NCBI RefSeq assembly: GCF_021029445.1
Contig: NZ_CP072610.1
Coordinates: 372,001-436,000, forward strand
Length of the DNA stretch: 64,000 nucleotides
Direction of reading: 5' to 3'
DNA from: Pseudomonas wenzhouensis
GTDB taxonomy: Bacteria; Pseudomonadota; Gammaproteobacteria; Pseudomonadales; Pseudomonadaceae
Position 1 is the stretch's first letter, and each line of letters opens with the position of its first letter. Both the position numbers and the translations under genes were made by a program. A model generated the notes under the pieces. That model saw only the letters and a program-made list of their open reading frames with translations, searched no databases and was not told the DNA's origin. Of the stretch, positions 9,662 to 63,418 are shown piece after piece.

Positions 9662-9761
9662 TGAGGCCGCGTGTCGACGCTTTTGGAAGCACAGCCTCCT
9701 ACGCCGGTGAGCGCCTGATCGCTGTCACCCTCATGGAACAGCGGCTATTTCGGTTTTCGAG

Positions 9762-9820
9762 CCCCGGATTGCATCCGGGCTACAGGCTGACGTGCGTAGG
9801 GTGCGCTGTGCGCACCACCC
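9762..9820. repeat. REP half-unit family B plus a GTAGGGTGCGC palindrome
   Basis: CCCCGGATTGCATCCGGGCT-AC (9762-9783) matches the right half of the family B elements at 44.5 and 63.4 kb. It is followed by GTAGGGTGCGCTGTGCGCACC (9796-9816), another Pseudomonas-type palindrome. Both are in the ppk-ppx gap and may also act as transcript ends. Confidence 0.65.
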
Positions 9821-16380: not shown

Positions 16381-16562
16381 TAGGGCTAGACGCTGTTTTT
16401 TCACGGTGTTAAATTCGGCCTCGCTGCATCTTTCATGCAGCTCTCTGCACGCCGTCGCCGATTCATTCCTATACGAATTCGTTCGCGATCCTGTCGCCTT
16501 CTCTGCGGCGCGGCCTCTCAAGCTAACAGCTTTCTTCTCCTCTCGATGATCACGTCATTCCT
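16381..16562 (+). promoter_or_regulatory. rho promoter/leader region
   Basis: About 180 bp between the trxA terminator and rho. It holds a hairpin GCTGCAT-ctttc-ATGCAGC (16423-16441) followed by a pyrimidine-rich stretch (CTTTCTTCTCCTCTC around 16530-16545). No Shine-Dalgarno sequence is visible before the rho ATG. E. coli rho is autoregulated by Rho-dependent attenuation in its leader; a C/U-rich unstructured leader would fit that here (inference). Confidence 0.4.
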
Positions 16563-30573: not shown

Positions 30574-30753
30574 ATGACTTCCCGGCGTGCCGCTGTCGGT
30601 TTAGCCCTTGAACCCGAAAGTTCAAGGTGGAGGTTGCAGGAGGCGTTAAGGCTTTCCGTCAGGCGGACATGCACACCGGCCCCAACATGCAACCCCCGTG
30701 GTTGTGCGTATCGGCTCAGGGACATCACCGACTGGCGCACACCCCAGGAAGTT
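30574..30753 (-). ncRNA. ssrS: 6S RNA
   Basis: About 180 nt. The ends pair: 5' ACTTCCTGG (30752-30744) with 3' CCGGGAAGT (30585-30577), with one G-U pair. The body matches the Pseudomonas 6S I know (GTCGGTGATGTCCCTGAGCC near the 5' end; CCTTGAACTTTCGGGTTCAAGG hairpin near the 3' end). Position between zapA and fthC is the standard locus. 6S binds sigma70 RNA polymerase by mimicking an open promoter and reprogrammes transcription in stationary phase. Ends are estimated from the stem and the -10 box. Confidence 0.93.
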
Positions 30754-31126: not shown

Positions 31127-31332
31127 GAGTCCTGCTCCAGGGCTTTGAGGCGCGAAATCATCGATTCGACCTTGTGCCGGGCCAATTCGTTCTTTTCGAT
31201 CAGATGAGCGCGTTCCTCGCGCCAGGCCTGTTCATTCGCCAGCAGGAGTCGGTTGTGAGCCTTTAGCTGCTCGACACGCTGGATCAGCAGCTCCAGCTTG
31301 GCGGTCAATGCGTGCAAATCGGCGTCTTCCAT
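31123..31332 (-). CDS. TIGR02449 family coiled-coil protein (ZapB-like)
   Basis: 69 residues, almost entirely a coiled coil: LHALTAKLELLIQRVEQLKAHNRLLLANEQAWREERAHLIEKNELARHKVESMISRLKALEQ. The family always sits just before zapA in gammaproteobacteria and is taken to be a division protein resembling ZapB. Stop overlaps the zapA start by 4 bp. Confidence 0.9.
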   Translation of the reverse strand: MEDADLHALTAKLELLIQRVEQLKAHNRLLLANEQAWREERAHLIEKNELARHKVESMISRLKALEQDS

Positions 31333-31391
31333 GGGCTCTCGCTATGGGAGGGAATGGCTGGACTATATAGGCCTGTCCCGTTCAGGGCACC

Positions 31392-31530
31392 TCTAAAAAC
31401 TACCTGCGTTGTCATCACTGCGTTAAAAACAAGCTCAAAATGTTAATTGCAACTCGTAAAGTCGAGCGCGACTCCGACCGTTTTTCGCTTGTTTTTGCCT
31501 TGTGCTGACTACCTCGCCTACGTTTTTAGA
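31392..31530. repeat. Structured dispersed repeat, family E, copy 1
   Basis: A 139-bp element in the 348-bp gap between the TIGR02449 gene and the YecA-family gene. Outer stem TCTAAAAAC (31392-31400) / GTTTTTAGA (31522-31530); inner stem AAAAACAAGC (31425-31434) / GCTTGTTTTT (31487-31496). Interior blocks CTGCGTTG, GCTCAAAATG, ACTCCG, TTTTTCGC and CCTCGCCTACG are shared with the copy at 38940-39060, which lies in the opposite orientation. The rest of the gap (31531-31680) shows nothing recognisable beyond the YecA promoter region. Confidence 0.8.
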
Positions 31531-31680
31531 TGCGCCCGTTGCGGGTCAAACCACGGTTGGCAGTGATGTGATGCTGATGACGGCATCACTCCGGCGCCTC
31601 GGATGGTCTTGGCGCGTCTGCCGGTGCTAGGATACGAGGCCTCCATTCTAGAGATTGCGCCGCCTGGCGCCTAGCTATCT

Positions 31681-32235
31681 ATGTCGATTCCAAGCTCTCC
31701 CTACGCCGCCTTCGCCGCTCTGCTCAGCAGCGCCGGGCATCCCGTTTCCCCTGCCGAACTGCACGGCCTGTTGCTGGGTCGCAGTTGCGCGGGCGCCGGC
31801 TTCGACGCCGACGCCTGGCTGCTCGACGCGGCTGATCTGCTCGGCGGCGAGCCGCAGGACAACGTGCGCCAGGCGCTGATCGGCCTGCAGGAGATGGTCA
31901 AGGGCGAATTGTGCAGCGAGGACATCACCGTGGTGCTGCTGTTGCCCGATGACGAAGCCCCGCTGACGCAGCGCGCGGTCGCGCTGGGGCAATGGTGCCA
32001 GGGCTTTCTCGCCGGTTTCGGCTTGACCGCCCGCGACGGTGCGCTGAGCGCCGAGGCCATGGAAGTGTTGCAGGATCTCTCCGCCATCGCCCAGGTGCAG
32101 AGTGCCCTGGAAGAGTCCGAAGATGGCGAGAGCGACTACATGGAGGTCATGGAGTACCTGCGGGTGGCGCCGCTGCTGCTGTTCACCGAATGCGCCAAGC
32201 CCGCCGTGCCTGCCGCCAAACCCTCCCTGCACTGA
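31681..32235 (+). CDS. YecA/YgfB family protein (UPF0149)
   Basis: 184 residues, helical. Family features: [42 protein letters not shown] at the N-terminus and [13 protein letters not shown] in the middle. No C-terminal SEC-C zinc motif, so this is the YgfB-type. In P. aeruginosa a YgfB protein modulates beta-lactamase (ampDh3) expression; the same role here is only inferred. Followed 19 bp later by pepP, likely in one operon with ubiH and ubiI, as in E. coli (ygfB-pepP-ubiH-ubiI). Confidence 0.9.
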
Positions 32236-32254
32236 TTTTTTGCCGGAGCCTGCC

Positions 32255-33589
<1,335 letters not shown>

Positions 33590-33593
33590 GTCC

Positions 33594-34778
33594 ATGGCCC
33601 GTGTGAACCTGGCGATCATCGGTGGCGGTCTGGTTGGCGCCAGCCTGGCACTGGCCCTGCAGGACACAGCGCGCCAGCGCGGCTGGCGCATCGCCCTGAT
33701 CGAGCCCTTCGCCCCGGGCAGCGAGTACCAGCCCAGCTACGATGCTCGCTCCACCGCGCTGTCCTACGGCAGTCGGCTGATCTATGAGCGCCTCGGCCTG
33801 TGGCAGAGCATCGCCCAACGCGCCGAGCCGATTCAGCAGATTCATGTATCCGATCGCGGCCGTTTCGGCGCCACGCGTCTGCAGGCCATCGAGGAAGGCG
33901 TGCCGGCGCTCGGCTACGTGGTGGAAAACGCCTGGATCGGCCATTGCCTTTGGCAGGCGCTGGATGTGGATGTGATCGAATGGCGTTGCCCGGCCGAGGT
34001 GGTCGGCATGCAGCGTGTCGACGACGGCTATCGCCTGAGCCTGAGCGACGAAAGCAGCCTGGATTGTGACCTGGCCATTCTCGCCGACGGCGGGCGTTCC
34101 GGCCTGCGTGAGCAGCTCGGCATCAATATCAGCAGCAAGCCGTATGGGCAGAGTGCGCTGATCGCCAACGTCAGCCCGCTGGAGGCGCATCGTGGCCAGG
34201 CTTTCGAGCGTTTCACCGATGATGGCCCGATGGCCATGCTGCCCTTGACCGACAACCGCTGCGCACTGGTCTGGACGCGTGCCGCCGCCGACGCCGAGCG
34301 CCTGCTACAGGCCAGCGAGGCAAGCTTCCTGGCTGAGTTGCAAGAGGCCTTCGGCTATCGCCTGGGTGCCTTGTGCCAGGTGGGCGCGCGGCATCTCTAT
34401 CCGCTGAGCCTGGTCGAGGCGCAGGAGCAGGTGCGTGCGCATCTGGTGGTGCTGGGCAACGCCGCGCACAGCCTGCACCCCATCGCCGGCCAGGGCTACA
34501 ACCTGTCGCTGCGCGATACCCTGGCGCTGGCCGAGGTGCTGATCGACAGCGAGGCACCGCTGGGCGACTTCGTCACCCTGCAGCGTTACCAGCAACGGCA
34601 GCAACTCGATCAGCGCATGACGGTCGGCTTCTCCGACCAGGTGACGCGTCTGTTCAGTAATGCGCAGCCGCTGCTGACCGCCGGGCGCAATCTGGGTTTG
34701 CTCGGCCTCGATCTGCTGCCACCGGCCAAGCGCTGGTTCGCCCGGCAGGCCATGGGCATGGGTACGCGAAGCCTCTGA
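33594..34778 (+). CDS. ubiH: 2-octaprenyl-6-methoxyphenyl hydroxylase
   Basis: 394 residues. FAD monooxygenase of ubiquinone synthesis (C1 hydroxylation). FAD-binding LAIIGGGLVGASLALALQD, a DG motif in LAILADGGRSGLREQLG, and the GD-type motif LVVLGNAAHSLHPIAGQGYNLSLRD, where the family GD is replaced by GN, as is usual in UbiH. Starts 4 bp after pepP. Membrane-peripheral, acting in the Ubi complex. Confidence 0.93.
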   Translation: MARVNLAIIGGGLVGASLALALQDTARQRGWRIALIEPFAPGSEYQPSYDARSTALSYGSRLIYERLGLWQSIAQRAEPIQQIHVSDRGRFGATRLQAIEEGVPALGYVVENAWIGHCLWQALDVDVIEWRCPAEVVGMQRVDDGYRLSLSDESSLDCDLAILADGGRSGLREQLGINISSKPYGQSALIANVSPLEAHRGQAFERFTDDGPMAMLPLTDNRCALVWTRAAADAERLLQASEASFLAELQEAFGYRLGALCQVGARHLYPLSLVEAQEQVRAHLVVLGNAAHSLHPIAGQGYNLSLRDTLALAEVLIDSEAPLGDFVTLQRYQQRQQLDQRMTVGFSDQVTRLFSNAQPLLTAGRNLGLLGLDLLPPAKRWFARQAMGMGTRSL

Positions 34779-34794
34779 CAGCCAAGGAATGAAT

Positions 34795-36012
34795 ATGCGA
34801 GCGGATCTGATCATCGTCGGCGCCGGAATGGTCGGCAGCACCCTGGCCCTGGCGCTGGAGCACTGCGGCCTGGACATCCTGATCGTCGACGGCAGCCCGC
34901 TGAGCGTGGCGCCATTCGCTGCGCAGGCGCCGTTCGAGCCGCGTGTCAGCGCATTGTCGATGGCCAGCCAGCGCATTCTCGAACGTCTGGGCGTTTGGCC
35001 TGGCATTGCCGCGCGGCGTGCCTGCCCCTATGGCGAGATGCGTGTGTGGGACGGTTCCGGCACTGGCAGCATCCACTTCGCCGCCGCCAGCGTGCATGCC
35101 GAGACGCTGGGCCATATCGTCGAGAACCGCGTGGTGCAGGATGCCCTGCTCGAAAGGCTGCACGACAGCCAGATCGGTCTGTTGCCCGGTGCGCGTCTGG
35201 AGCAATTGCGCCGCTCCGGCGATGACTGGCTGCTGACTCTCACCGATGGCCGTCAACTGCGTGCGCCGCTGCTGGTGGCAGCCGATGGCGCCAACTCGGC
35301 AGTGCGTCGCCTGGCTGGTTGCGCCACGCGCGAATGGGATTACCTGCACCACGCGATCGTCACCAGCGTGCGCTGCGAGCAGCCACACCAGGCCACCGCC
35401 TGGCAGCGCTTCACTGACGACGGCCCGCTGGCCTTCCTGCCCTTGGCCGGGCCGGCTGACGAGCACTGGTGCTCGATCGTCTGGTCGACCGTACCGGCTG
35501 AGGCTGAGCGCCTGATGGCGCTGGATGATGCCGCCTTCTGTGTCGAGCTGGGCAAGGCCTTCGAGCATCGCCTGGGCCAGGTGCTACATGCCGACCGCCG
35601 TCTGTGCATTCCACTGCGTCAGCGCCATGCCAAGCGCTATGTCGAGCCGGGGCTGGCGCTGACCGGCGATGCCGCGCACAGCATTCATCCGCTGGCCGGG
35701 CAGGGGGTCAATCTGGGCTTCCTCGATGCGGCGGTGCTGGCCGAGGTGCTGCTGCATGCCGCCGAGCGCGGCGAGCGCCTCAGTGATGAGCGGGTGCTGA
35801 GCCGCTACGAGCGCCGGCGCATGCCGCATAACCTGGCGATGATGGCGGCGATGGAGGGATTCCAGCGTCTGTTCCAGGCCGACCCGCTGCCGCTGCGCCT
35901 GCTACGCAATTTCGGCCTCGACCTGGTCGATGGCCAGGCCGAGGCCAAGGCGCTGTTCGTGCGTCAGGCGCTGGGGGTATCGGGCGATCTGCCGGAGTTG
36001 GCGCGAGTCTGA
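34795..36012 (+). CDS. ubiI: UbiH/UbiF/VisC-family FAD monooxygenase (UbiI-like)
   Basis: 405 residues. Start at the second ATG (34795): AAGGA lies 6 bases upstream, but touches the first ATG at 34789. FAD motif LIIVGAGMVGSTLALALE, DG motif LLVAADGANSAVRRLAG, and GD motif GLALTGDAAHSIHPLAGQGVNLGFLD. Position after pepP-ubiH corresponds to VisC/UbiI (C5 hydroxylase), but C6 hydroxylases (UbiF, Coq7) are related and sequence alone cannot exclude another regiospecificity. Ten bp separate it from ubiH. Confidence 0.85.
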   Translation: MRADLIIVGAGMVGSTLALALEHCGLDILIVDGSPLSVAPFAAQAPFEPRVSALSMASQRILERLGVWPGIAARRACPYGEMRVWDGSGTGSIHFAAASVHAETLGHIVENRVVQDALLERLHDSQIGLLPGARLEQLRRSGDDWLLTLTDGRQLRAPLLVAADGANSAVRRLAGCATREWDYLHHAIVTSVRCEQPHQATAWQRFTDDGPLAFLPLAGPADEHWCSIVWSTVPAEAERLMALDDAAFCVELGKAFEHRLGQVLHADRRLCIPLRQRHAKRYVEPGLALTGDAAHSIHPLAGQGVNLGFLDAAVLAEVLLHAAERGERLSDERVLSRYERRRMPHNLAMMAAMEGFQRLFQADPLPLRLLRNFGLDLVDGQAEAKALFVRQALGVSGDLPELARV

Positions 36013-36067
36013 TACGACGCAACTTGTAATAACTGCTGCGTGTCGTCTCGCTGTTTACGTTGAGAAG

Positions 36068-36086
36068 GCAAATAACATTCACTACT
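36068..36086. promoter_or_regulatory. Weak Fur-box candidate before hitA
   Basis: GCAAATAACATTCACTACT matches about 11 of 19 positions of the classical Fur consensus and lies 38 bases before the hitA ATG. Iron repression would be expected for this transporter, but the match is weak. Confidence 0.25.
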
Positions 36087-36123
36087 ATTCAGCCACTTTG
36101 CTCACCCACAAGAGGCTGGTCCC

Positions 36124-37125
36124 ATGAAAGCTCGCAACGCGCTTCTCGCTGCATTCACTCTCAGCTCCCTGGCAACCGCCGTTCAGGCTGCTGATGAGGT
36201 GGTGGTCTACTCCGCCCGTATCGACGAGCTGATCAAGCCGGTATTCGATCTCTACACCGAGAAGACCGGGGTCAAGGTGAAGTTCATCACCGACAAGGAA
36301 GCCCCGCTGATCGCCCGTCTCAAGGCCGAAGGTGCCAACACCCCGGCTGACCTGCTGATCACCGTCGACGCTGGCAACCTCTGGCAGGCCGAGCAGGAAG
36401 GCGTGCTGCAGCCAACCAAGTCCGATGTGATCGACGCCAACATACCCGCCCAGTACCGCTCCAGCACCGACAGCTGGACCGGCCTGTCGCTGCGTGCACG
36501 GACCATTTTCTACTCCACCGAGCGCGTCAAGCCGGAAGAGTTGTCCACCTACGAAGCGTTGGCAGACAAGAACTGGGAAGGCCGCCTGTGCCTGCGCACC
36601 AGCAAGAAGGTCTACAACCAGTCGCTGACCGCCACCCTGATCGAAGCCCATGGCGCCGAGAAGACCGAAGAAATCGTTAAGGGTTGGGTCAACAACCTGG
36701 CTACCGACGTGTTCCCGGATGACACCGCGCTGTTGCAAGCCATCGACGCCGGTCAGTGCGACGTGGGCATCACCAACACCTACTACTATGGCCGTCTGCA
36801 CAAACAGCAGCCGGATCTGAAGGTCAAGCCGTTCTGGCCGAACCAGAACGACCGTGGCGTGCACGTCAACCTGGCCGGTGCCGGTGTGACCAAGCATGCA
36901 CCGCATGCCGAACAGGCCAAGAAGCTGCTGGAGTGGATGACCACCGCAGAAGCACAGAGCATCTTCGCCGGTGTTAACCAGGAGTACCCGGCCAACCCGG
37001 CGGTGAAACCGTCTGCCGAGGTGGCTTCCTGGGGCACTTTCAAGGCCGATACCGTGGCCACCGAAGTATCTGGCAAGCGCCAGGCCGAAGCGACCATGCT
37101 GATGGACCGCGCTGGCTGGCAGTAA
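36124..37125 (+). CDS. hitA: Periplasmic ferric iron-binding protein
   Basis: 333 residues with a signal peptide ([22 protein letters not shown]). FbpA/HitA family: [32 protein letters not shown], then the iron-ligand tyrosine pair in [11 protein letters not shown]. Binds Fe3+ in the periplasm after siderophore-free or outer-membrane delivery and passes it to HitB. The gene downstream is the permease. A hairpin at 37170-37193 between them probably keeps the binding protein more abundant. Confidence 0.92.
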
Positions 37126-37169
37126 GCGCGTAACGATCATCGACTAGCCCAGCGCTGCCGTTATACTGC

Positions 37170-37193
37170 GACGCCCCGCCTAGCCGGGGCGTC
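37170..37193 (+). terminator. Hairpin between hitA and hitB
   Basis: GACGCCCCG-cctagc-CGGGGCGTC, 44 bases after the hitA stop. Partial attenuator or 3' stabiliser, a frequent feature between binding-protein and permease genes. Confidence 0.6.
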
Positions 37194-37219
37194 GTCATTT
37201 CCGTAGTCGAGGAGTCCGC

Positions 37220-38836
37220 GTGCCGCATCCCGTCCAGCGTCGCTGGTACCCCATCGTCCTTGCCGTCGCCGTTCTGGTGTTGATGCCGCTGTCGGTGCTG
37301 CTGCTGAGCTGGCACGACGTGGATCAGCAGATCTGGGCGCACCTGTGGCAGACGCAGATGGCACGGCTGATCGGTAATACGCTGACGCTGGTGATCGGTG
37401 TCGGCGTAGGGGTGACGCTGCTGGGCGTGAGCCTGGCCTGGCTCACCAGCCTCTGTGAGTTTCCCGGCCGGCGCTGGCTGGACTGGGCGCTGATGCTGCC
37501 TTTCGCCATTCCCGCCTACGTGCTGGCATTCGTTTTCGTTGGCCTGCTGGATTTCGCCGGCCCGGTGCAGACGCTGCTGCGCGAATGGTTCGGCAGTGGC
37601 TTGCGCCTGCCGCGCGTGCGCTCGACCGGCGGGGTGATCATCGTGTTGGTGCTGGTGTTCTATCCCTACGTCTATCTGCTCGCTCGTGGCGCCTTCCTGG
37701 CTCAGGGCAAGGGCTTGATGGAGGCGGCCCGGGTGCTCGGGCAAAGCCCCTGGCAGGCGTTCTGGCGGGTGGCGCTGCCAATGGCGCGCCCGGCCATCGG
37801 TGCTGGTCTGGCCCTTGCAATCATGGAGACTCTGGCGGATTTCGGCGCGGTGTCGGTGTTCAACTTCGACACCTTTACCACGGCGATCTACAAGACCTGG
37901 TACAGCTTCTACAGCCTGACCAGTGCCACCCAACTGGCCAGCCTGCTGCTGCTGGCCGTGGCGTTGGTGCTCTACGGCGAGCGTCGTGCCCGTGGTGCGG
38001 CGCGGCCGGCCAGCGAGCGGCCCCGTGGCCAGGCGCTGTATCACCTGCATGGCTGGAAGGCCTTCGCAGCCAGCGCCTGGTGTGGCCTGGTATTCGCCTG
38101 TGCCTTCGTCATCCCGCTGCTACAACTGCTGGCGTGGTTCTGGCAGCGCGGCCGCTTCGACCTCGACGAGCGCTATGCCGGGCTGATCCTGCATACCCTG
38201 TACCTGGGCGGCATGGCGGCACTGATCACGGTGAGCGTGGCCATGCTGCTGGCCTTTGCCCGGCGTCAGGCGCCGAATCGCGGCGTGCGTTTCGGCGTGG
38301 CGTTGGGCAACCTCGGTTATGCCCTGCCGGGGTCTGTGCTGGCGGTGGCGATCATGTTGGCCTTCAGTTTCCTTGATCGCGAGCTGGTGATTCCGCTGTC
38401 CACGGCACTGGGTGGAGCCGGCAAGCCGCTGCTGATGGGGAGCCTCACGGCGCTGCTGGTGGCCTATCTGATCCGCTTCATGGCCGTGGCATTCGGGCCG
38501 CTGGAAACCAGCTTGGCGCGGATTCGCCCATCGCTGCCGGAAGCCTCGCGCAGTCTCGGGGTTGGCGGCGTTGGCCTGTTCTTCAAGGTCTACCTGCCAC
38601 TGCTGTTGCCGGGCACCCTGTCGGCTGCGTTGCTGGTCTTCGTCGATGTGCTCAAGGAAATGCCGGCGACCTTGCTGATGCGCCCGTTCGGCTGGGATAC
38701 GTTGTCGGTACGCGTGTTCGAGATGACCAGCGAAGGCGAATGGGCGCGCGCCTCGTTGCCGGCGCTGACGCTGGTGCTGGTCGGCCTGTTGCCGGTGATT
38801 TTGCTGATAAGGCGCTCGGCCCGCAGCTTCGGTTGA
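37220..38836 (+). CDS. hitB: Ferric iron ABC transporter permease
   Basis: 538 residues from a GTG start with GAGGAG in front. A fused two-half permease of about 12 helices, as in FbpB/HitB. Two EAA loops: EAARVLGQSPWQAFWRVALPMARPAIGAG in the first half and EASRSLGVGGVGLFFKVYLPLLLPGT in the second. No ATPase gene (hitC) follows; the next gene is gcvT, so the ATPase must be encoded elsewhere or shared. P. aeruginosa likewise has hitAB alone. Confidence 0.92.
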   Translation: MPHPVQRRWYPIVLAVAVLVLMPLSVLLLSWHDVDQQIWAHLWQTQMARLIGNTLTLVIGVGVGVTLLGVSLAWLTSLCEFPGRRWLDWALMLPFAIPAYVLAFVFVGLLDFAGPVQTLLREWFGSGLRLPRVRSTGGVIIVLVLVFYPYVYLLARGAFLAQGKGLMEAARVLGQSPWQAFWRVALPMARPAIGAGLALAIMETLADFGAVSVFNFDTFTTAIYKTWYSFYSLTSATQLASLLLLAVALVLYGERRARGAARPASERPRGQALYHLHGWKAFAASAWCGLVFACAFVIPLLQLLAWFWQRGRFDLDERYAGLILHTLYLGGMAALITVSVAMLLAFARRQAPNRGVRFGVALGNLGYALPGSVLAVAIMLAFSFLDRELVIPLSTALGGAGKPLLMGSLTALLVAYLIRFMAVAFGPLETSLARIRPSLPEASRSLGVGGVGLFFKVYLPLLLPGTLSAALLVFVDVLKEMPATLLMRPFGWDTLSVRVFEMTSEGEWARASLPALTLVLVGLLPVILLIRRSARSFG

Positions 38837-38939
38837 GGCTAGCCCTTGCCAAGGGGGCGACCTTTGGTCAGATGACCCCCGCCAACCTTGCGGCTACAAT
38901 GCGCGCCATTCGCGAGCCGGCCCATCCGGCAGACGTGTC

Positions 38940-39060
38940 GAGAAGCGTAGGCGAGGCGGCCAGTGCAAGGCGCAGCAAGGCGAAAAAGCGGAGTGTGCTT
39001 CTGCACATGAGCATTTTGAGCCTGGCTGTAACGCAGCAATGGCAACGCAGCTAGCTTCTC
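38940..39060. repeat. Structured dispersed repeat, family E, copy 2
   Basis: 121 bp, opposite orientation to copy 1. Outer stem GAGAAGC (38940-38946) / GCTTCTC (39054-39060); inner stem CAGCAAGGC / GCCTGGCTG (8 of 9 paired). Both stems sit at the positions of those in copy 1 but have different sequences. Fills much of the 268-bp hitB-gcvT gap. No glycine riboswitch is evident there. Confidence 0.8.
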
Positions 39061-39104
39061 GGGGGTCTGAATCGCTTCGCCAAGCCCGGAAGGAGATATA
39101 ACCC

Positions 39105-40202
39105 ATGGGACAGCGCACCCCCCTCTATGACCTGCATGTGGCGTTGGGGGCCAAGATGGTGGATTTCGGCGGCTGGGACATGCCGCTGCACTATGGTTCG
39201 CAAGTCGAGGAACATCATCAGGTGCGCCGCGAGTGCGGCGTATTCGATGTCTCGCACATGTGCGTGGTGGACGTCAGTGGTGAGCAGGCGCAGGCCTACC
39301 TGCAGCGCCTGCTGGCCAATGACGTGGCGCGCCTGCAGACGCCTGGCAAGGCGCTGTACAGCGCCATGCTCAACGAGCAGGGCGGGGTGATCGATGACCT
39401 GATCGTCTACCTGACCGGCTCTTCTTCTCCGGCACCGGGCTACCGCCTGGTGCTCAATGCGGGGACTCGCGACAAGGACCTGGCCTGGATGCACGCCCAG
39501 ACCGCCGAGTTCGCTGTCGAAGTGCGCGAGCGCCGCGACCTCGCGGTTTTGGCCATTCAAGGCCCCAAGGCCCGTGCCCGTGTCGCCGAGCTGGTGACCC
39601 AGGCCCGTGCCGCGCTGATTCACGAGCTCAAGCCGTTCCAGGGGCTGCCAGAGGCTGACTGGTTCATCGCGCGTACGGGTTATACCGGCGAGGATGGTCT
39701 GGAGATCGTGCTGCCGGCGGCAGAGGTGGTGTCTTTTTTCAACGATTTGGTCGGTGCCGGTATTTCGCCGATTGGCCTGGGCGCGCGTGACACCCTGCGC
39801 CTGGAAGCGGGCATGAACCTGTATGGCCAGGACATGGACGAGCAGGTCAGCCCGCTGCTCGCCAACATGGCCTGGACCATCGCCTGGGAACCCGCTGCGC
39901 GTGACTTTATCGGTCGTGTGCCGCTGGAGGCACAACGCGCCGTCGGCTGCCCGAGCAAGCTGGTCGGTCTGGTGCTGGAAGAACGTGGCGTGTTGCGTGC
40001 CCATCAGGTGGTGCGGGTGGCTGGTGTCGGCGACGGTGAGATCACCAGTGGCAGCTTCTCGCCTACGCTGAACAAGTCCATCGCCCTGGCGCGTGTACCG
40101 GCAGCCACCGGTGAGCGGGCCGAGGTGGAGATCCGTGGCAAGTGGTACCCGGTGCGTGTGGTGCAGCCGGGGTTCGTGCGTAACGGCAAAACGCTGATCT
40201 GA
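39105..40202 (+). CDS. gcvT: Aminomethyltransferase (glycine cleavage T-protein)
   Basis: 365 residues. Transfers the aminomethyl carbon from lipoyl-GcvH to tetrahydrofolate, releasing ammonia. Key regions: TPLYDLHVALGAKMVDFGGWDMPLHYGSQ, GVFDVSHMCVVDVSG, the folate-site Asp region, LARTGYTGEDGLEIVLP, and the C-terminal GLGARDTLRLEAGMNLYGQDM. A very strong ribosome site, AAGGAGATATA, precedes the ATG. Followed by gcvH, 86 bp later. Confidence 0.96.
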   Translation: MGQRTPLYDLHVALGAKMVDFGGWDMPLHYGSQVEEHHQVRRECGVFDVSHMCVVDVSGEQAQAYLQRLLANDVARLQTPGKALYSAMLNEQGGVIDDLIVYLTGSSSPAPGYRLVLNAGTRDKDLAWMHAQTAEFAVEVRERRDLAVLAIQGPKARARVAELVTQARAALIHELKPFQGLPEADWFIARTGYTGEDGLEIVLPAAEVVSFFNDLVGAGISPIGLGARDTLRLEAGMNLYGQDMDEQVSPLLANMAWTIAWEPAARDFIGRVPLEAQRAVGCPSKLVGLVLEERGVLRAHQVVRVAGVGDGEITSGSFSPTLNKSIALARVPAATGERAEVEIRGKWYPVRVVQPGFVRNGKTLI

Positions 40203-44503: not shown

Positions 44504-44512
44504 GTTTCACCT

Positions 44513-44572
44513 GTAGCCCGGATGCAATCCGGGGAGTCGTGAGAAAAAGCCCCGGATTGCATCCGGGCTACG
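44513..44572. repeat. REP element, family B, inside the aguBA operon
   Basis: GTAGCCCGGATGCAATCCGGG ... CCCCGGATTGCATCCGGGCTAC. It fills the gap between aguB and aguA almost completely (70 bp), so it is transcribed in the middle of the operon and may tune the aguB:aguA ratio. Another copy is at 63360-63418. Confidence 0.8.
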
Positions 44573-51599: not shown

Positions 51600-52790
<1,191 letters not shown>

Positions 52791-52905: not shown

Positions 52906-54090
<1,185 letters not shown>

Positions 54091-63359: not shown

Positions 63360-63418
63360 TAGCCCGGATGCAATCCGCGAGAGCGAGCCAGAATACCCCC
63401 GGCTTTCATCCGGGCTAC
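63360..63418. repeat. REP element, family B, after argA
   Basis: TAGCCCGGATGCAATCCGCG ... CCCGGCTTTCATCCGGGCTA, paralleling the element in the aguBA operon. Confidence 0.75.

Follow-up and report, generated by a model that had tools for sequence, protein, structure and literature searches.

We analysed a repeat that occurs twice in a 64,000-nucleotide stretch of the Pseudomonas wenzhouensis genome (NZ_CP072610.1, positions 372,001 to 436,000; hereafter the window, to which coordinates refer unless stated otherwise), at 31385-31537 (element 1) and, in inverted orientation, at 38930-39069 (element 2, a match to the family model). Model searches of the genomes sampled place both copies in a large family of ~140-bp elements, which is probably an old, non-autonomous mobile element built of two parts: terminal repeats that transposases would recognise, and a folding core whose ends can be exchanged. 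The family matters since in it a single core is joined to the ends of three or more types of transposase, since it shows RNA-like covariation in mobile DNA, and since it is widespread.

Both elements, the sequence blocks that they share and four of their stems are present as an earlier, sequence-only reading of this DNA had described them. That reading took all four pairings to be intact, which holds except for one mismatch in the inner stem of element 2 (CAGCAAGGC/GCCTGGCTG), and it proposed a two-stem fold, in which the stems are real but the structure is understated, comparison of copies establishing five nested helices (outer, mid, inner, 4-bp and apical), each variable on both arms. From the outside inwards, an outer stem of ~16 bp is followed by an asymmetric internal loop (TACTGCGCTCGG / CTTCGCTCGCTACG or variants), the mid stem, the loop TGCGTT / GCCTT, an inner stem of ~10 bp, TC / TC, a 4-bp helix, the loop TGCTCA / CTCCGC and an apical stem of 5 bp; part of the copies carry extra modules at fixed positions.

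The observation that the arms still pair although both have changed extends from the two copies to the family. In an alignment of 85 copies (A4; 85 rows from 84 loci, some genomes contributing several) all 42 base pairs vary on both arms, 90.8% of paired cells can pair as against 60.1% after shuffling and 37-47% with slid partners, and the covariation score is 0.752 vs 0.192, a value reached by none of 500 shuffles; these pairing figures benefit from the fact that the model's own structure guided the alignment. When 12 outside-class copies were fitted to a broader model (R2, see below), 92.8% of paired cells could pair and 40 of the 42 pairs varied on both arms. Compared with dinucleotide-preserving shuffles, both window copies also fold better, whichever strand is taken (z from -3.2 to -4.6), with 0/200 shuffles folding as well in each of the four folds (two copies, two strands). 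More copies thus brought more stem covariation, and their stems are not identical in most cases, the two points on which the sequence-only reading had staked its claim.

When the 4.45-Mb genome was searched with the first copy as the query, 29 pieces were obtained that had a common interior and very different outer arms, and blastn with the same query recovered the second copy at E=0.001 with 67% identity. Model R1 was built from 16 copies of this genome, both window copies included (alignment A1, whose 16 rows omit those copies of the genome that have large inserts or poor ends); it gave the second copy 122.7 bits, a score that is partly so by construction because this copy is among the 16, and in the genome as a whole it found 46 matches at E<=1, of which 42 reach E<1e-6. 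R1 also matched in at least 43 of 57 genomes from a sample of relatives and at least 69 of 185 from a sample of the class, and R2 in at least 81 of 249 from a sample of the phylum, 59 of these 81 carrying the label 'same phylum', which means that they fall outside the class. The own genome is included in all three tallies, and all numbers of copies and genomes are minimum values because only the best candidates per genome were scored (17 for the class, 13 for the phylum, 56 for the relatives). The same core was plainly present in 15 inspected stretches from 12 outside-class genomes, and all 12 outside-class stretches that were run against R2 matched it. In our literature searches no paper could be identified as describing this family, and the core strings matched none; the repeat families of P. 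fluorescens (R178 and others; PMC2718517) could include the element, judged from part of that description rather than from a comparison of sequences.

That the element is mobile, as had been proposed, is borne out by comparison, both by an empty site at element 1 and by near-identical copies with unrelated flanks. The site of element 1 was aligned for the window and 18 of 80 fetched loci: six of the 19 rows are filled, 12 are cleanly empty, reading CCCGGTTACGGG or similar, and one (L102) is too diverged to call. Element 1, which belongs to end class A, is favoured for folding on the minus strand, the top strand of the model being the plus strand of the window. On the plus strand its left terminal repeat GGGCACCTCTAAAAAC (31385-31400) pairs with the right terminal repeat (31522-31537), the left arm of the mid stem (31412-31418) with 31502-31508, and the left arm of the inner stem, AAAAACAAGC (31425-31434), with 31487-31496; the 4-bp helix and the apical region occupy 31437-31486, a stretch that includes the extra module GTCGAGCGCGACTCCGAC. 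From flank comparison a 4-bp target duplication is likely, with TTCA at 31381-31384 as its left copy; the right copy (31538-31541) has decayed to GTTG in the window and reads TTCT in the ortholog L094, where TTCA/TTCT still flank the element. Elsewhere in the genome, four copies (L043, L044, L046 and L047) are 98-100% identical and lie in unrelated flanks, with their GGTTCTGTACGAAAAG-type ends between YTA and TAG.

The outer stems, which the sequence-only reading had explained as palindromes adopted at the target, turned out instead to be transposon-like terminal inverted repeats of ~16 bp. Comparison sorts them into classes, three of which match the ends and insertion habits of three insertion sequences (ISs): IS1182 (class I), IS5 group 4 (class C) and IS5 group 3 (class H). 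The own genome, with 22 PF01609 matches, contains an IS1182-family element with class I ends (CAGACTGTGTGAAAAC / CAGGCTGTGTGAAAAC) and a 1331-bp IS5_4 element with class C ends (CAGGCCGTTGAAAAA), of which six out of six copies have 4-bp YTAR duplications. In the genomes G007, G008 and G010, class H ends form inverted pairs with a spacing of 910-947 bp and bound an IS5-type IS with TA on either side in a YTAR setting; the protein of the G007 copy, the only one tested, is split over two reading frames that both score above the IS5_3 cut-off, and class H elements coexist with this IS in G007 and G008.

Exact 4-bp duplications flank 11 of 19 class C elements (all 11 YTAR), 7 of 14 class I elements and 7 of 16 class A elements, with 0/2000 shuffles as good for each class, and TA stands on both sides of 9/11 class H elements. 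The suggestion that the element inserts into palindromes stood in part: the flanks of class I elements are palindromic like those of IS1182-type ISs (2/300 swaps as good), those of class A, to which element 1 belongs, give a suggestive signal (25/300), and none was seen in classes C, H and B/G. The end, duplication, palindrome and core/end tests were run after removal of eight duplicate loci (L060-L065, L067, L068). Two class A elements of the own genome, L294 and L312 (near 3073600 and 2363700 of the genome), lie ~1 kb from PF01609 transposase genes, and at the ends of these two genes the search for class A ends gave, besides the elements' own, only two matches with four substitutions.

Some related structures were met along the way. 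All ten IS1182-type copies that we read in the own genome (L296-L300, L307-L309, L311, L313) sit in terminator-like palindromes, six of them with exact 4-bp duplications. A short hairpin at G000:C1:4366980-4367060 (L024, L183) has element-like ends (GTAGGCGAG... / ...AGGTAG) around ~27 bases and is almost coreless, and at G012:C22:208995-209045 two inverted class H ends stand 51 bp apart, leaving no space for a core.

The mismatches that remain in the helices differ between the strands. On the model's top strand, A.C exceeds G.T among the core mismatches in 30 copies and falls short of it in 9, with 46 tied (p=0.001, for copies that are not independent of one another), an excess that arises although the aligning model favours G.T; at the ends the corresponding counts are 29 and 19 (p=0.19). 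At the closing pair of the apical stem the top strand has A.C in 78 of 85 copies and A-T in two, and on the bottom strand this pair is, in the same 78/85, a G.U beside GA/GA, an arrangement typical of RNA. Mismatches that wobble on the bottom strand, together with the near-invariant G.U, therefore suggest a folded RNA or single-stranded DNA; of the two, selection on the bottom strand in the form of RNA seems likelier than selection on it as single-stranded DNA.

Element 2, at the gcvT locus, was found by the model in the window and in 13 of 80 loci, and allows the fold to be followed at a single site. The strand favoured for folding is here the plus strand of the window, on which the inner part of the outer stem (38939-38946) pairs with 39054-39061, the mid stem GCCAGTGC (38959-38966) with 39036-39043, and the inner stem CAGCAAGGC (38973-38981) with 39020-39028; the most conserved motif, GCGGAG - apical stem - TGAGCA (38988-39013), includes the apical closing G.U (38993 with 39008). 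The list of open reading frames (ORFs), the sole check of coding made, contains a mechanical ORF at 38740-39054 that crosses the element. Divergence was calculated for 11 of 21 sequences, ten being omitted for large insertions or deletions, remnants or a missing element. In these 11 rows the differences per site are 0.33 in the inner stem, 0.08 in the coding flank of gcvT, 0.19 in the downstream spacer and 0.02 in the upstream spacer; the loop CTCCGC is variable (0.26), two rows carry an apical module, and no difference is seen in the mid stem or in the loops TGCGTT, TGCTCA and GCCTT. The two arms of the inner stem are exchanged as a pair, GCAGGCAAAC/GTTTGCCTGC and GAAAGTGGG/CCCACTTTC substituting for each other among the orthologs.

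An inner stem that changes faster than the coding flank and the downstream spacer is what would be expected if pairing were kept by DNA mechanics, that is, by template switching from arm to arm and gene conversion among dispersed copies, with no folded RNA needed. This explanation, which we regard as unlikely, also draws on the changes counted between closely related copies (pairs that are not independent): pairs that are at least 95% alike already have 12 double changes in the core, against 0.7 expected. Moreover, the GTCGAGCGCGACTCCGAC-type apical module, present in three of the six filled rows at the site of element 1, is also found in dispersed copies, and therefore some conversion is favoured. 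The same pairs nevertheless have more single-arm than double changes (31 to 12), as if compensation followed, and at 85-90% likeness 194 single-arm and 280 double changes are counted, a pattern that compensation and block copying both fit. Against DNA mechanics there also stand the invariant loops and mid stem in the very rows in which the inner stem varies, the strand-specific wobble bias and near-invariant G.U, and the search for donors, which showed none, the exact inner-stem arms of the element 2 orthologs being found almost only at the gcvT locus.

The two parts of the element have been recombined. Among 68 copies with both ends recognised, class A and class C copies have cores up to 97% identical on ends that are 41-47% alike, class A and class I copies have cores up to 92% identical on ends 47-59% alike, and class A and class H copies have cores up to 90% identical on ends 41% alike. 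Either matched pairs of ends were swapped or cores were converted between residents with different ends, and in either case one core has probably been combined with different end pairs, so that a single passenger would serve several types of transposase. We consider it improbable that this is an ordinary family of miniature inverted-repeat transposable elements (MITEs), whose ends drifted along with those of related IS5 and IS1182 elements and whose functionless cores are alike through youth. The three ISs are indeed distantly related, each of their proteins also matching the models of the other families, and class C and I ends are on average 62% alike. The divergence between class A and C ends on 97% identical cores is, however, too abrupt for shared drift, and youth does not account for a core that can still be recognised outside the class although its stems have changed completely.

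A further possibility, and a distinctly improbable one, is that the folded strand is single-stranded DNA serving recombination, as in attC sites and IS200/IS605 hairpins, with the end repeats secondary. A strand-specific structure in a mobile element would suit it, but the exact duplications begin at the IS-like ends, and the linked REP-type transposase for which the sequence-only reading advised a check did not materialise: the genome has nine Y1_Tnp matches, each of them more than 10 kb away from all 46 copies. Chance similarity was rejected on the shuffle folds and the covariation in 85 copies, and so was decay from identical stems, the window pair not being decayed outliers and the stems varying across the family.

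We thus return to the two-part mobile element. Its terminal repeats would be recognised as double-stranded DNA by transposases encoded elsewhere, the enzymes of the three matched ISs moving in trans the elements of the corresponding end class, while a core of ~105 bases would fold on one strand, the model's bottom strand, into nested helices with conserved internal loops. The folded strand would be RNA, less likely single-stranded DNA, and modules and paired arms were probably exchanged partly via conversion between dispersed copies. The neighbouring genes allowed 88 of 106 loci to be classed (34, 25, 20 and 9); by a crude gene caller the copies lie mostly near gene ends, with 12 of the 106 loci overlapping a predicted ORF. 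The core might most likely act in transcripts near the 3' ends of genes, as a processed or terminator-like hairpin that would make insertions tolerable and would be of benefit. A scan of 31300-31700 around element 1 gave no promoter or terminator, and one of 38830-39110 gave one promoter-like match, upstream of element 2. The end classes provide directly testable pairs of transposase and element, and the strand bias a concrete target for RNA mapping.

Several observations weigh against this interpretation. On the side of the ends, 77 of 156 copies fit no recognised end pattern; the ends of element 2 (CAGACNNNNCGAGAAGC-like) fit none of the recognised classes, starting with CAGAC as in classes C and I, and no target duplication was seen there; duplications in class B/G are not significant; exact-pattern searches found no partner IS for class A in eight genomes or for class B in six; and for class I the elements come from other genomes and the matching IS from the own genome, no single genome having been shown to hold both. 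On the side of the core, the apical helix has the opposite bias (3 G.T, 0 A.C), the strand test suffers from the non-independence of its copies, and the terminator scans of both window elements (the two regions given above) found none. The copies are not significantly biased in their orientation to genes (34 vs 20, p=0.076, with the crude gene caller), and therefore a role inside host messages is not favoured.

Elsewhere in the window, the 407-aa protein encoded at 34789-36012 is 99% identical to a P. mendocina EF27 protein and 97% identical to a P. oleovorans protein, on which ground we place the host in that group, and a tandem duplication of ~640 bp (51775-52417 and 53078-53717, 70-81% identical) probably represents paralogous genes. 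The Rfam scan of the window gave three matches, 6S RNA (30575-30753), Pseudomonas sRNA P1 (47972-48152) and a Pseudomonas Rho leader (16414-16514), none of them at either element; with no family reaching its gathering score there, a known Rfam RNA was rejected as an identity for them.

Amongst known systems, repetitive extragenic palindromic (REP) sequences and REPINs consist of a palindrome of 20-40 nt linked to a RAYT (Y1) transposase. The present element resembles REP, bacterial interspersed mosaic element (BIME) and REPIN sequences in being repeated, palindromic and mostly intergenic, and differs from them in its size of ~140 bp, its IS5/IS1182-like ends and its 4-bp or TA duplications; the REP family was rejected on size, ends and the lack of a linked Y1 transposase, as the sequence-only reading had anticipated. 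A separate short palindromic repeat in the window, AGCCCCGGATTGCATCCGGGCTAC (9760-9786, 44510-44571 and 63395-63418), is probably an ordinary REP-type family.

MITEs are usually regarded as derivatives bound to one transposase. Like them, the present element is short and non-autonomous, being too short to contain a transposase gene, and has IS ends and target duplications: its ends match autonomous ISs in classes C, H and I, no partner being found for classes A and B and element 2 fitting no class, and duplications were found class by class and an empty site for element 1. It differs in carrying at least three types of transposase ends on one core, and in core helices that covary and are strand-biased. 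Judged by these comparisons it is MITE-like in mechanism, with what appears to be a structure-conserved core and exchangeable transposon ends. The Tn3-derived inverted-repeat miniature elements (TIMEs) are likewise non-autonomous, found in Pseudomonas spp., moved in trans and mosaic; they are longer (262 bp), with 38-bp Tn3-type ends and 5-6-bp duplications, and the abstract of their description does not mention a shared folded core (PMC4133298).

The closest comparison is with enterobacterial repetitive intergenic consensus sequences (ERIC / IRU / RU-1), which are of comparable size and form a long hairpin. ERIC is, in the parts of two papers that we consulted, 127 bp long with TA termini and TA duplications, and its mechanism of transfer is described there as not elucidated (PMC2759123; PMC2229807). 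By eye, ERIC and the present family have in common the motifs GGAG-stem-stem'-TGA and AACGCA; the inner helices of ERIC are unlike ours, and its TA duplication has a counterpart in class H alone, the other classes differing. In three ERIC copies (L387, L392, L393) the apical stem varies and pairing is kept (CTTAC/GTAAG, CATAG/CTATG, CCTAC/GTAGG). Model R2 scored 18-30 bits on the predicted strand at four of five enterobacterial ERIC loci, failing at one, and the opposite strand of the best locus, the same palindrome, scored 4.2 bits. Counting against a relation, when 40 kb of E. coli were searched an unrelated palindrome reached 19.2 bits vs 18.1 for ERIC, R1 found ERIC at E=0.015 in 1.3 kb, and a sequence-only profile run against ERIC found nothing. 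We hold it likelier than not, though unproven, that ERIC is a remote relative of the present family. A bolder and more tentative proposal, which we think possible rather than probable, is that a single ancient, mobile folded core spans the phylum well beyond the class, with ERIC as its enterobacterial branch, and persists by changing its transposase, matched pairs of ends being exchanged between IS5- and IS1182-type systems, while the RNA fold of one strand is selected and nearly all stems are free to change. If so, the satellite would be defined by structure, not by sequence or transposase, and if ERIC does belong to the family, the movement of ERIC and the preservation of its central hairpin would have an explanation open to testing.

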